Assembly (NCBI GenBank): GCA_021325525.1
Contig: JAJPHB010000039.1
Location: 1 to 51,607 of the forward strand
Reading direction: 5' to 3'
Length of the DNA: 51,607 nucleotides
Source: Alphaproteobacteria bacterium
GTDB lineage: Bacteria; Pseudomonadota; Alphaproteobacteria; ATCC43930; CGMCC-115725
Positions 21,372 through 29,512 of the stretch are shown here, one piece after another (position 1 is the stretch's first letter; every line of letters begins with the position of its first letter). Under the pieces are notes generated by a model. It saw only the letters and a list, made by a program, of their open reading frames with translations, had not been told where the DNA came from and made no database searches. A program made the translations under genes and the position numbers.

Positions 21372-22790
<1,419 letters not shown>

Positions 22791-22795
22791 CGCCG

Positions 22796-23203
22796 TCAGC
22801 TCAAGAAGCGCTCGACCGTCTCCAGGAAGTTGGCGACGGAGATCGGCTTCGCGATGTAAGCCTCGCAACCGCCTTCGCGGATCTTCTCTTCGTCGCCCTT
22901 CATCGCGAAGGCCGTCACCGCGATGATCGGGATCGAGCGCAGATCGTCATCCTCCTTGATCCATTTGGTGACCTCCAGGCCCGAGACCTCGGGAAGCTGG
23001 ATGTCCATGAGGATCAGATCCGGCCGATGATGGCGCGCCAGCTTCAGCGCCTCCATTCCGTCCTTGGTCTGCAAGGTGTCATAGCCATGGGCTTCGAGGA
23101 GATCGTGGAAGAGCTTCATGTTGAGCTCGTTGTCCTCCACGATCAGCACCGTCTTCGGCTCGGCGCGGTCTTCCTGCGGCTGAAGGCTTTGGTTGGGGTG
23201 CAT
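22796..23203 (-). CDS. divK: Single-domain response regulator DivK
   Basis: The protein has 135 residues from ATG 23203. It is a lone receiver domain: [19 protein letters not shown], phospho-acceptor Asp67 in [16 protein letters not shown], Thr in [11 protein letters not shown] and Lys in YIAKPISV. There is no output domain. DivK in Caulobacter-like bacteria relays phosphate signals that end in control of CtrA. Location directly before pleD supports the assignment. The first 18 residues, rich in Gln and Glu, are an extension compared with the roughly 125-residue family norm, and a start at 23284 would extend it further without support. Confidence 0.93.
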
Positions 23204-23511
23204 GCTCCGCCCGTCGCTTGACACACGCTGAATGGTTCGGCGATCCCCGCGACATGACGGAGGGGGATACCCCAATTCCGACACTTGACGAGTGATCCAG
23301 CCAACGTTCTAAGGCAGCATTGTTAATAATCCGTAACCATCGCGGGTATGGGGGCGCGAAATTTCTCAAGCAGATCGGCAGCCTCGCCGGCAGCCTTCCA
23401 GCGGCCCGTCAGAAAGCGCGCCGCGAGGATCGCCGAGCGCGCTTTCGGCCGTATCGGCACCGGTCTATGATCGGCTGAGCGGCGCCGGGACAACAGTGGT
23501 CCTGTCCGGGA
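23204..23511. other. 308-bp divergent intergenic region
   Basis: This region separates divK (minus) from the ROK kinase (plus). On the plus strand TTTCGG (23443-23448), 17 bp and TATGAT (23466-23471) make a fair promoter for the kinase. Near 23323-23337 the minus strand reads GTTACGGATTATTAAC, a TTAAC-containing AT-rich island that could hold the divK promoter or an imperfect CtrA site. I see no convincing small gene. Confidence 0.5.
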
Positions 23512-25689: not shown

Positions 25690-26514
25690 TCAGCAATTCG
25701 GCTTCGGCAGCGCCTCGATGCTGTCGAGCGTCGCTTTGATGGCGAAATCGCCGTAATCGAGCACCATGTCGCGCGAGACGCCATTGTCGAGAAGGCGCAT
25801 GCCGAGCTCGTAATCGGGTTGGTCCGCTTTGGTGTCGGCCGGAAAGAAGGCAAGGCGCATGCGCCAGGAGGGCCGGGCGAGAAGCGGGCTCTTCACCTTC
25901 GCCTCGGCGGCGCCGGCCTCGGCCGTCTGCGGCGACCCGATGACCGCCGAGACATCGACGGCATTCTCCTCGGTCGCACCGTCGAACACCTTCGCGCCGA
26001 CGAACTGGTCGCCGGCCGCGGCGCGCTCGATCAGCAGGATCGTGTGCGCCGTCGGGAAAATGACGCCCGGGGCCAAGGTCATGGTCTCGTTGTTGGGCTT
26101 GGTGAAGTCCACCGTGCCGCCCTTTCCCTTGCCGTCGAGCCGCGCCTCGCCGCGCACTTCGTCATCGATGTCGCCATTCTTCAGCTTGCGCTGGTAGAAG
26201 CGGTAGCGCAGGCCGTCCTTGGACTCCCAGGTGACAAAGTTCGAGGTGAGCTCGACATCGGGCTCCTCGGCGTAGTGCATGGTCAGCTTGTAGCGCTGCT
26301 CGACGGTCCAGCCGTCGCAGGTCTCGCCCCATTCGAACGCCATGCTGCCGCTCGCCGCGACGACGCCGCTATTTTGCTTGGATGAGCTGAGCGACATGTC
26401 GTAGAGGGCGCGGTGGGGCGCAATGTCGACGGCGATAGCCGGGCCGGCCATGGCGACGAGAAGGCCCGCGGCGACCGCGACGGCCCTGCCGGGCGACAAG
26501 CGCATCGATATCAC
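25690..26514 (-). CDS. eipB: Cell-envelope integrity protein EipB (DUF1849)
   Basis: The protein has 274 residues from ATG 26514; ATG 26505 is an alternative. A signal peptide (about 1-28, ending in GPAIA) directs it to the periplasm. The mature protein is beta-rich, with HRALYDMSLSS near the start. Cys66 in GETCDGWT and the very last residue Cys274 are the only mature cysteines and match the conserved disulfide of EipB from Brucella, a periplasmic beta-spiral protein needed for envelope stress resistance. It stands as a single gene, divergent from the adenylate cyclase. Confidence 0.88.
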   Translation of the reverse strand: MISMRLSPGRAVAVAAGLLVAMAGPAIAVDIAPHRALYDMSLSSSKQNSGVVAASGSMAFEWGETCDGWTVEQRYKLTMHYAEEPDVELTSNFVTWESKDGLRYRFYQRKLKNGDIDDEVRGEARLDGKGKGGTVDFTKPNNETMTLAPGVIFPTAHTILLIERAAAGDQFVGAKVFDGATEENAVDVSAVIGSPQTAEAGAAEAKVKSPLLARPSWRMRLAFFPADTKADQPDYELGMRLLDNGVSRDMVLDYGDFAIKATLDSIEALPKPNC

Positions 26515-26679: not shown

Positions 26680-28086
26680 ATGAGCGAAGCCGATTCCCTG
26701 TTGTCGCTTCTGCGGCAATCGGTCGCTTCCGATATCGTCGCGGCGATCGAGGACCTGATCCGGAACGCACCCGATCGCGAGCTGAACCGCATCAATGCGC
26801 TGAATTTCGCCGCAAGGCGCGGCCTCGATGAAGAGCGCGTCATCGCCGGCTTTCTCCACGCGACGCGGATTGGCCTCTTCGATCTCTCCTGGAACGTCCT
26901 GTGCCCGGGCTGCGGCGGCGTGCTCGATGCCGGCACCTCGCTGAAAAGCCTCGTCCACGAGGAATATGATTGCGCGCTTTGCGCCGCCGGCTACGAGCCG
27001 ACGCTCGACGAGATGGTCGAGGTCACCTTTACCGTGACGCGCCGCGCCCGCAGCATCGCCGCGCATGATCCGGACCAGCTTCCCTTCGCCGAATATTGCC
27101 GCCAGATCTTCTGGAGCTCAGGGGTCGACCTGCCCGAGGAGTTCGCGCAGCTCATCGAGGAGGTCACGCTCGACGCGGTCGAGCTTCCGCCGGGCGAGAA
27201 GGCGATCCTTTCGATGCAGCTTCCGGCGGAATTCCTCATCGTCTTCGACCCGGTGACGCATGGGACGCAATTTCTCGATGTGAAGGGCGAGCCGACACGG
27301 GAGCGGCAGACCCTTGCCGTCGCCTTTGACAAGGTGCGAGCGCCGACCGGCACGACGTCGATGCGGCCGGGCCCGTTGCGCCTCACGCTCGAGAACCACA
27401 GCGATGTTCGGGTGCTCCCGGGCGTCTGGATCGCGGCGGAAAAGCTTCACGCGCTTCTGGGCAAGCGCCGGCCTTTCCTCACGGCAAAGCGTCTCCTGAC
27501 GAACCAGACATTTCGCGATATTCACCGCACCGACGCGCTCGATGTCGACCAGCGCCTCAAGATCACGAGCCTCACCTTCCTCTTCACCGACCTCAAGGGC
27601 TCGACCGAGCTCTATGAGCGCGTCGGCGACCTCGCCGCCTTCGATCTCGTCAAGGCGCATTTCCGCATTCTGACGGAGATCGTCGCCGCCGAGGCCGGGG
27701 CGGTCGTCAAGACCATCGGCGACGCGGTGATGGCGACCTTCCCGACGCCCGACCGCGCCCTCGCCGCCGCCTTGCGCATGCGCGAGGCGATGCGCGCCCT
27801 CAACGAGGAGCGCAAGAGCGAGGATTTGCTGCTCAAGATAGGCATCCATGAAGGTCCATGCCTGGCCGTGATGCTGAACGACCGCCAGGACTATTTCGGC
27901 CAGACGGTGAACATCGCCTCGCGCGTGCAGAACCTCGCCGTCTCCCGCTCGATCTTCGCGACCGGATCGGTGGTCGAGCACCCCGAGGCATCGAGCCTCC
28001 TCGCGGCGAGCGGCCTCAAGGCCTTGCCGCAGCGCCGCACCTTGCGCGGCATCGTCGACGCCTTCCCGGTCTTCGAGATCCCCTGA
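26680..28086 (+). CDS. Class III adenylate cyclase with N-terminal DUF5939-like/zinc-ribbon region
   Basis: The protein has 468 residues from ATG 26680. The C-terminal cyclase homology domain (about 295-440) has both metal-binding aspartates: Asp304 in LFTDLKGSTELY and Asp348 in KTIGDAVMATF, plus GQTVNIASRVQ, so it should be active in making cAMP. The N-terminal 280 residues match the DUF5939-type region found on such cyclases. They include a four-cysteine motif, C75-x2-C78 and C98-x2-C101, that may hold zinc. No membrane segment is seen, so it is cytosolic. TAGACT at 26668-26673 lies so close to the ATG that a leaderless message is possible. Confidence 0.88.
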   Translation: MSEADSLLSLLRQSVASDIVAAIEDLIRNAPDRELNRINALNFAARRGLDEERVIAGFLHATRIGLFDLSWNVLCPGCGGVLDAGTSLKSLVHEEYDCALCAAGYEPTLDEMVEVTFTVTRRARSIAAHDPDQLPFAEYCRQIFWSSGVDLPEEFAQLIEEVTLDAVELPPGEKAILSMQLPAEFLIVFDPVTHGTQFLDVKGEPTRERQTLAVAFDKVRAPTGTTSMRPGPLRLTLENHSDVRVLPGVWIAAEKLHALLGKRRPFLTAKRLLTNQTFRDIHRTDALDVDQRLKITSLTFLFTDLKGSTELYERVGDLAAFDLVKAHFRILTEIVAAEAGAVVKTIGDAVMATFPTPDRALAAALRMREAMRALNEERKSEDLLLKIGIHEGPCLAVMLNDRQDYFGQTVNIASRVQNLAVSRSIFATGSVVEHPEASSLLAASGLKALPQRRTLRGIVDAFPVFEIP

Positions 28087-28101
28087 CGCGGCATCTGGTG
28101 C

Positions 28102-28137
28102 CGGAAGTTTCTTCCGCGCGCGGCAGAATTTGCCGCG
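28102..28137. repeat. Two adjacent perfect inverted repeats upstream of the sigma-54 promoter
   Basis: CGGAAG-TTT-CTTCCG occupies 28102-28116, and CGCGGCA-GAATT-TGCCGCG occupies 28119-28137. They lie between the cyclase stop (28086) and the -24 element, about 55-90 bp upstream of it. They could bind a sigma-54 activator protein, or the first could be the cyclase terminator. Confidence 0.55.
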
Positions 28138-28191
28138 GCCCCAAGCCGGAATTCAGGCCAGATTTCACACCGAATTCCCAAAGACCGCGCC

Positions 28192-28207
28192 TGGCACGGT
28201 CCTTGCT
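28192..28207 (+). promoter_or_regulatory. Sigma-54 (RpoN) promoter of the GGDEF gene
   Basis: TGGCACG-N4-TTGCT matches the -24/-12 consensus fully, with GG at 28193-28194 and GC at 28205-28206 exactly 10 bp apart. Transcription should start about 12 bases downstream, near 28218, leaving a leader of about 28 bases with GGAG (28237-28240) before ATG 28247. Confidence 0.85.
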
Positions 28208-28246
28208 TGAGGCTCCGTAGACCCATTGTCGTGCACGGAGCGCGTC

Positions 28247-28933
28247 ATGTCGTATCTCGCCGAAACGCAGGCCCGGATCACCCCAGACCATAAGGTCGAG
28301 CCGCGCGCCGACAACGTGATCCCGTTGACTTTGCCGCGCGAGGCCGACCGCCAGGGAGTCGTCGATTGGGCACTCGCAGCGGTCGCCGAGGCCGAGCAGC
28401 GCCTTGCTGCCCTCCAGGCGCGCGTCGACTATCTCGAAGGCATCTCGGTAACGGACGAGCTCACCGGCTTGCTCAACCGCCGAGGCTTCCTCGCCCAGCT
28501 TGACCGCGCCATGGCATCGGCGCGGCGCGGCGGCCCGCATGGCGTCCTCATGATATGCGATCTCGACGGCTTCAAGGCGATCAACGACATCCACGGGCAT
28601 CTCGTCGGCGACGAGGTGCTGGCCCAGTTCGCGAACCTCCTCGCCCGCCACGTCCGCCGCATCGACACGGTAGCGCGGCTCGGTGGCGATGAATTCGCCG
28701 TGCTGTTGGTCGGAGCCCATCTCGCGGCGGCGCGGCGCAAGGTGCATGCCTTGACCCAGCTCATCGGCAAGACCGCCTTTCCGGTGAGCGCCGGCGAAGT
28801 CAGGCTTGGCGCCAGCTTCGGGCTCGCGACTTATTCGGGCGAGGAGAGCGAGGACGAGCTCCTGAACCGCGCCGACCGCGCCATGTACGGGCAGAAGCGC
28901 CGCCACGCCGCGGCCCGCGCCGCGCGCAATTGA
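28247..28933 (+). CDS. Diguanylate cyclase (GGDEF domain)
   Basis: The protein has 228 residues from ATG 28247, with GGAG six bases upstream. A TTG start at 28226 would add seven residues but would place the start before the ribosome-binding site. A short N-terminal part with a coiled-coil stretch (about 46-68, AEAEQRLAALQARVDYLE) leads to one GGDEF domain (about 70-225) with an intact GGDEF loop and an RRID inhibitory site five residues before it. It should make c-di-GMP and dimerise through the coil. There is no sensor domain or membrane segment, so control is probably transcriptional, through the sigma-54 promoter. Confidence 0.93.
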   Translation: MSYLAETQARITPDHKVEPRADNVIPLTLPREADRQGVVDWALAAVAEAEQRLAALQARVDYLEGISVTDELTGLLNRRGFLAQLDRAMASARRGGPHGVLMICDLDGFKAINDIHGHLVGDEVLAQFANLLARHVRRIDTVARLGGDEFAVLLVGAHLAAARRKVHALTQLIGKTAFPVSAGEVRLGASFGLATYSGEESEDELLNRADRAMYGQKRRHAAARAARN

Positions 28934-28948: not shown

Positions 28949-29512
28949 CTAATTCGACGCGGCGGTCCGCGCCGGCGGTAGCGGCGGAATTACCAGAGTC
29001 TGGTCGGGCGGCAATGGATTGCCGCTGACGCCGAGCGCTCGCAGCGCCGCGAGTTGCGGCGCACCGAGGGGTCCGAGGACGACCCGGTGAAATTCGGTAC
29101 CCCGCTGGCGGATGACGAGCACTCTCGCATTGTAATCGAGATAGCTCCGCGCCAGCCGGTCGGCATTGGCGCGTTCGACGAAGCTTCCGATGAGAAGATA
29201 CTGCGCGGATGGCCAGGCTCCGGCGGGCGATGCCGAAAGCGGCGCCGCGGCGGCGATCGCCGATCCGCCGCGACGCTGCTCCACGGGTGCCGGCGCTAGC
29301 GGATGCCGAGGATCGCGGCAGATCGCCTTCCCGACGAAGATATGCCAAGCGGCGCAGTCCTCGCCCTTGACCGCCGAGACGCCGTTGTCGGAGACGCTCT
29401 TGCCCGTCGCGGCATAGCTCGCGCCGTCGGCTGCAAGAGAGGCGACGGTGACGGTCGGCGAGACGCAGCCCGCCAGCGACGTCGCCAGCACCACCAGCCC
29501 GGCCACGCGCAT
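28949..29512 (-). CDS. SPOR-like lipoprotein
   Basis: The protein has 187 residues from ATG 29512. It opens with a lipoprotein signal (LVVLATSLAGC, Cys16 as lipidation site). A middle stretch has a Cys pair (EDCAAWHIFVGKAIC). The region from about 104 to 155, QYLLIGSFVERANADRLARSY and then FHRVVLGPL, matches the SPOR fold that binds denuded glycan strands in the cell wall, often at the division septum. It ends in a proline-rich tail. The gene converges on the GGDEF gene with 15 bp between stops. Its exact role is unknown. Confidence 0.75.
   Translation of the reverse strand: MRVAGLVVLATSLAGCVSPTVTVASLAADGASYAATGKSVSDNGVSAVKGEDCAAWHIFVGKAICRDPRHPLAPAPVEQRRGGSAIAAAAPLSASPAGAWPSAQYLLIGSFVERANADRLARSYLDYNARVLVIRQRGTEFHRVVLGPLGAPQLAALRALGVSGNPLPPDQTLVIPPLPPARTAASN

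Follow-up and report, generated by a model that had tools for sequence, protein, structure and literature searches.

According to the parts of the cited reports covered here, the late flagellar promoters of Caulobacter depend on FlbD and sigma-54 and show ftr elements, with a role for FliX in the same system (PMC3930126, PMC3096577), and the RpoN motif of this bacterium is GGCNC-N4-CTTGC (PMC4287350). DgcB (CC_1850) of Caulobacter is a stator-associated diguanylate cyclase that drives surface attachment (PMC7885107, PMC11481889, PMC5677366), and its catalytic Glu is residue 261 (dgcB E261Q; PMC7885107). Both DgcB at the stator and the phosphorylation of PleD are links between c-di-GMP and the flagellum that act on enzyme activity (PMC7885107). 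In E. coli, predicted sigma-54 promoters are located before the diguanylate cyclase genes yhjK and yeaJ (PMC3162934), so the pairing of sigma-54 with a diguanylate cyclase is not new in itself.

The window, i.e., the whole stretch of 51,607 nucleotides analysed, contains a gene encoding a predicted diguanylate cyclase, preceded by a sigma-54-type element and three palindromes (Table 1). The only domain above the cut-off in its product is GGDEF (PF00990, 1.9e-40), in agreement with an earlier interpretation made from the letters of this DNA (the sequence-only reading), which had described a GGDEF enzyme without a sensor domain. The predicted model (mean pLDDT 87.9, 18 sequences) shows low confidence in residues 1-20, a single long helix between residues 35 and 67, and the GGDEF domain from about residue 70; PleD structures are among the closest solved relatives by sequence (7.9e-27). 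The GGDEF motif is at residues 146-150 and the I-site is R137-xx-D140. Residues D105, N113, D114, G146-F150, R137 and D140, to which we assign metal, substrate and I-site roles, are invariant in 11 orthologues, and the helix ahead of the GGDEF domain, which might serve dimerisation or docking, is conserved in the same set. The diguanylate cyclase signature (GGDEF, metal and substrate residues, and RxxD I-site) is complete in the predicted enzyme, and the product is predicted to make c-di-GMP.

Table 1. Features of the GGDEF locus and its surroundings in the window.
Feature	Position	Strand	Remarks
pleD-like (two receivers + GGDEF) and divK-like (single receiver) genes	21372-23284	-	Pfam domains; tblastn synteny
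EipB-like gene	25690-26514	-	in relatives it usually precedes the GGDEF gene
DUF5939 + class III nucleotide cyclase gene	26680-28086	+	neighbour outside the conserved locus
ftr-like palindrome CGGCA-TCTGG-TGCCG	28089-28103	+	8/8 arm bases; starts 3 bp past the cyclase stop codon
Palindrome CGGAAG-TTT-CTTCCG	28102-28116	+	6/8; can be taken for an ftr-like element with symmetric changes
ftr-like palindrome CGCGGCA-GAATT-TGCCGCG	28119-28137 (core 28121-28135)	+	8/8 arm bases; proposed FlbD enhancer
Sigma-54 -24/-12 element TGGCACGGTCCTTGCT	28192-28207	+	0 mismatches against TGGCAC-N5-TTGCW
Predicted transcription start	28218	+	12 bp past the -12 GC; placed from spacing alone
Sensorless diguanylate cyclase gene, 228 aa	28247-28933 (ATG 28247; stop ends 28933)	+	PF00990
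Gene for a small protein, marginal SPOR domain	28949-29512	-	21.8 bits against a cut-off of 21; partly conserved in place

The -24/-12 element, located 40 bp upstream of the ATG, shows a spacing of 10 bp between GG and GC, and here the sequence-only reading, which had proposed an RpoN consensus with this spacing, was accurate. It is the only perfect match to TGGCAC-N5-TTGCW in the whole window, with 0.01 expected from dinucleotide shuffles. In the complete genome (4.79 Mb) the same consensus with at most one mismatch is not enriched (66 sites, compared with 93 when the pattern is reversed); a single match is therefore weak evidence, and its position and its conservation carry the weight. Two palindromes had been reported upstream, at 28102-28116 and 28119-28137, and both are exact, while a third one, at 28089-28103, had been overlooked. 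Two of the three contain an exact GGCA-N5-TGCC, at distances of 70 and 102 bases ahead of the -24 element, and this element resembles the ftr sites of Caulobacter. The strict form CGGCA-N5-TGCCG is found twice in the window (0.32 expected; at least two in 4 of 100 shuffles), and alone it is at chance level in the whole genome, with 61 sites against 60 for the reversed pattern. The combination of a palindrome and a -24/-12 element 50-80 bp apart is found once in the window and in none of 100 shuffles. The C-to-A and G-to-T variants of the palindrome at 28102-28116 recur at the same positions in 7 and 11, respectively, of 66 orthologue sites, and the commonest spacer among the orthologue palindromes is A/G-A-T/A-T-T, GAATT being the spacer at 28119-28137.

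As judged from its sequence, the GGDEF gene is a member of a broad alphaproteobacterial family. The close set contains 61 genomes (the own genome and 60 relatives): 17 show a match at 1e-30, with 20 matches in all, and the 11 matches with at least 44% identity, own gene included, are considered close orthologues. All 11 show a -24/-12 element directly upstream (0-2 mismatches; perfect in two) and eight show strict CGGCA-N5-TGCCG, and the nine weaker GGDEF matches show neither the element nor the palindrome within 400 bp (0/9 for each). FliM is encoded in all but one of the 11 orthologue-bearing genomes (the exception, G026, is 79% complete) against 23 of the 50 without an orthologue. In the whole class, 153 of 387 genomes match the profile at 1e-45, and the loci examined are the matches down to an E value of 1.2e-61. 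The -24/-12 element (0-2 mismatches) precedes the gene in 29 of 29 further loci and in 38 of the next 40, for which the reverse strand gives 0/40 and mononucleotide shuffles 1.4/40. Three loci repeat genomes already counted, and the total is 75 of 77 distinct orthologues, some of them from the same genus, with at most two mismatches; the two loci which lack an adjacent element are L185 (G294) and L196 (G265). Palindromes with 8/8 arm bases are present in 40 of 75 upstream regions (0.2 in shuffled sequences, none for the reversed pattern) and with at least 7/8 in 66 (5.0 shuffled, seven reversed). The element and the palindromes, whose possible loss in relatives had been put forward as the test of the sequence-only reading, are thus retained. 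Perfect -24/-12 elements are found in Azospirillum sp. TSH64, Rhodospirillaceae SAT2755, A. brasilense and Emcibacteraceae OFTM144, and the A. brasilense orthologue also shows two palindromes. Among 80 named GGDEF loci, L057-L061 show the site, L057 being G001 again with one mismatch; the other 75, all weaker relatives, include three with a two-mismatch site.

The tree of the family contains 113 loci and the PleD of the window: 120 loci entered and seven were dropped for an internal stop or a length below 140 aa. Left out were L052, which has an internal stop, the repeats L137-L139, four loci that closely resemble retained rows (L153, L154, L158 and L161) and, from the 80 named loci, 41 including L057. 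A single clade (80 rows; support 100/96, in a tree whose bootstrap had not settled) holds 68 of the 70 promoter-bearing rows. The remaining 12 rows of this clade are ten that form one paralogous clade, and L185 and L196. The two promoter-bearing rows outside it, L085 and L124, are unrelated and were labelled through two-mismatch sites, as chance predicts. The paralogous clade shows no site in any of its ten rows and includes a GGDEF gene of G000 (C159:5854-6390, L054) without a sigma-54 site. An origin of the family from the nearby pleD gene is not supported by the tree, in which the PleD of the window groups outside the GGDEF family.

The genome encodes RpoN once and six clear sigma-54 activators. 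One of them, on a contig of 5.3 kb (C124), is FlbD-like: its best family is NF050807 (FlbD), with 680 or 718 bits, below the curated cut-off of 750 bits, for a gene whose start is lost because the contig ends inside it. Its neighbours are flhA (FHIPEP, 1.3e-261), an flhF-like gene for an SRP54-type GTPase and an flhG-like gene of the ParA/MinD type. Another activator is a PEP-CTERM response regulator (TIGR02915, 693 bits, above the cut-off), and the remaining four are, as we would name them from sequence, NtrC-, NtrX- and PspF-like proteins and the C151 activator. Eighteen hand-picked sigma-54-like sites of the same genome were compared for palindromes and boxes. Six of them show 8/8 palindromes, the exact GGCA-N5-TGCC occurring once or twice between -66 and -102 relative to the -24 element. 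They belong to the GGDEF gene, two uncharacterised genes, flgI and two flgE/F/G-family genes (one flgF-like, the other flgE-like), the flagellar labels being those of the Pfam families FlgI and FlgE/F/G. The flgI, flgF-like and GGDEF sites have two exact elements each. The other 12 sites show palindromes of 6/8 at most, and nine of them have a TTTACA/TTTGACA box, which is absent from all six palindrome-bearing sites; many of the 12 precede genes that look PEP-CTERM-like by eye. In G000, L014, L015, L019, L025, L027 and L030 make up a second sigma-54-like class with this box upstream and PEP-CTERM-type genes (by eye). Since GGCA-N5-TGCC precedes flagellar but not PEP-CTERM-type sigma-54 sites, it is very probably an FlbD (ftr-type) enhancer of late flagellar genes. 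The GGDEF gene shows an upstream element like that of late flagellar genes, an FlbD-like gene is encoded in the same genome, and FlbD can be named as the likely activator through the elements common to flagellar genes.

In 17 genomes, 32 matches were obtained for a composite element (GGCA-N5-TGCC, 50-80 bases, TGGC-N7-TTGC), against two for the reversed pattern, and six of the 17 have none. By Pfam, the genes that follow it include FlgI (L225), FlgE/F/G-family (L235, L240) and FliK (L222, L244) genes, and also GGDEF genes; several matches, including those of two genomes of the same order, precede unrelated or doubtful frames. The element also picks out further uncharacterised candidate flagellar genes. 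A family with the motif NPLQH(L/I)P is repeatedly found after an ftr-like plus sigma-54 element in several genomes (L016:5014-5913, + strand, G000 contig C28; L230, L232, L267, L269 and L271); its G000 and G003 members show no Pfam match and the G000 member no NCBIfam match, and the family is a candidate for a flagellar gene of unknown function. Another protein, whose start resembles a secretion signal by eye, follows the composite element in two genomes, as L036 (7080-7808, + strand, G000 contig C14) and L245 (G006); the L245 member shows a Sel1 repeat below the cut-off and the L036 member no Pfam match. By description only, it recalls Caulobacter FssB, which has a Sec signal and TPR in the part of the report covered (PMC7885107).

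In the 387 genomes, FlbD (1e-130) is found in 60 of the 76 that carry the gene (1e-60) and in 129 of the 311 that do not (Fisher p = 3.5e-9, kinship uncorrected). Its presence in these 129 genomes indicates that the GGDEF gene is no fixed part of the regulon. Nor does FlbD accompany the gene everywhere: with all candidates scored, a recognisable full FlbD is absent from 16 of the 76 gene-bearing genomes, among which G191 and G271 show a partial or divergent FlbD, and G294 retains only the C-terminal half. The composite element gives 15 matches across these 16 genomes, against three for the reversed pattern, and none in four of them (G010, G271, G305 and G387); the gene behind it is that of flagellin in G148 and flgI in G332. 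An FlbD-type activator may be present but unrecognised in such genomes, or lost at contig ends. In G294, a composite element (L263) is found not next to the GGDEF gene but at a distance of about 1.4 kb on its upstream side.

The GGDEF gene is about 5 kb from the pleD-like gene; the names pleD and divK are those that we presume for the two genes given in Table 1. The order pleD-divK-rok-dinB-eipB-GGDEF-(SPOR)-aspS-rnd-ppx recurs in a large part of the family, and sections of this order are also found in Azospirillum, SAT2755 and Emcibacteraceae. In 13 of 14 related loci an eipB homologue is located at most 2 kb upstream of the GGDEF gene, and none was found in L061. Several relatives (L040-L045) show a stretch like GTATGTCACGCTTC between eipB and the GGDEF enhancers, possibly an eipB promoter or a regulator site. 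The convergent gene does encode a SPOR domain, as had been noted, although just above the cut-off.

Two of the alternatives concern the neighbouring genes. The sequence-only reading had joined the upstream cyclase (cAMP), c-di-GMP and the SPOR protein (cell wall) in one module, and the three genes are indeed adjacent in the own genome. However, the nucleotide cyclase of the window gives no tblastn match (1e-8) in any of the 14 related loci, being found only here among the loci compared, and the SPOR gene is in place in four of the 14 (35-44% identity). The absence of the cyclase gene leaves a module of two messengers and the cell wall unsupported, and we consider it highly improbable; the sigma-54 promoter, the palindromes and the sensorless GGDEF enzyme of the same interpretation stand, and are conserved. 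Only slightly more credit is due to the idea that the palindromes end transcription of the upstream cyclase gene and are not activator sites. The location of the palindrome at 28089-28103 just past the cyclase stop, with a T-containing tail behind it, speaks for this idea, and this palindrome could double as a weak terminator stem. Against it, relatives that lack the cyclase gene at this place keep palindromes at a similar distance from the -24/-12 element, and terminator-like sites in the region are at shuffle level (two found, 2.2 expected).

The other two alternatives concern the promoter. An accidental -24/-12 match, with transcription of the gene from a different promoter, fits the missing genome-wide enrichment of the consensus, but hardly its presence upstream of nearly all distinct orthologues and its absence from the reverse strand, and this is the least probable of all the explanations. 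A sigma-54 promoter that answers to a different activator (NtrC-, NtrX-, PEP-CTERM-regulator- or PspF-like, or C151) has the best chances among the alternatives, and is nevertheless unlikely. The genome offers six clear activators, and the gene-bearing genomes without a recognisable full FlbD also favour this explanation. However, the palindrome class is common to flagellar genes and absent at the PEP-CTERM-type promoters, most of which have the TTTACA/TTTGACA box, a comparison that makes control by the PEP-CTERM regulator unlikely, and the composite element in relatives often leads to flagellar genes. The anatomy of the promoter and its conservation can be regarded as established at the level of sequence comparison. 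Because promoter and palindromes are like those of flagellar genes and are conserved in the orthologues, the likeliest reading places the GGDEF gene among the late (class III-type) flagellar genes controlled by FlbD and sigma-54, and we hold this to be probable.

As a late flagellar gene, it would be transcribed from its sigma-54 promoter upon binding of FlbD to the GGCA-N5-TGCC elements, a step for which the case is strong, and by analogy with Caulobacter FliX would permit the action of FlbD only once the early basal body is built. A sensorless GGDEF enzyme with this timing would be produced alongside the proteins of hook, rod and ring, and the capacity to make c-di-GMP would thus be tied to flagellum assembly. 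The c-di-GMP would most likely act at the flagellated pole or at the motor, where it would either help the cell to pass later from swimming to attachment or act as a brake, this being the least certain step; a DgcB-like role in attachment is the Caulobacter analogy for this output. Its role may be in attachment, in motor control or in flagellar assembly itself. A bolder proposal, to which we give somewhat less than even chances, is that the only input of this sensorless family is the flagellar assembly checkpoint (basal body completed, FliX and FlbD on), so that each new flagellum would come with its own dose of an enzyme that subsequently slows it down or stops the cell from swimming, as a timer from assembly to settlement. 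The conservation of the promoter arrangement in many Alphaproteobacteria suggests that flagellum building also builds a c-di-GMP enzyme able to end swimming later. If it does belong to the late flagellar genes, the GGDEF gene would provide a simple and testable transcriptional coupling in many genera, Azospirillum included.

A diguanylate cyclase gene inside the FlbD flagellar regulon was not found in print in the literature covered. In the open-access papers searched, supplements aside (e.g., the RpoN start-site table of PMC4287350), no FlbD-controlled diguanylate cyclase was found, and none is named in the parts covered of PMC3930126, PMC8921679, PMC12918737, PMC12363192, PMC12316311, PMC3162934, PMC4287350 and PMC5677366; an earlier report is possible. 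Compared with the Caulobacter FlbD system, as described in the parts of the reports covered, the window shows the same arrangement of a -24/-12 element, which fits the Caulobacter RpoN motif exactly (PMC4287350), and upstream palindromic elements, as before flgI and the flgE/F/G-family genes, and the genome encodes an FlbD-like activator. Unlike that system, the element precedes a gene for a signalling enzyme that is located away from the flagellar clusters, in a neighbourhood of eipB, dinB and divK-pleD. For E. coli yhjK and yeaJ a sigma-54 promoter is likewise assigned, in other bacteria and for other genes, and the part of the report covered names no flagellar activator (PMC3162934). The predicted enzyme shares the GGDEF domain with PleD, which has two receiver domains and whose copy in the window is outside the family in the tree. 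Like DgcB, it would be a diguanylate cyclase linked with the flagellum, but its catalytic Glu is residue 149 and not 261, a distinction made by position and not by sequence, and the link described for DgcB in the portions covered, which do not mention dgcB transcription, is at the protein level, whereas the link proposed here is transcriptional.
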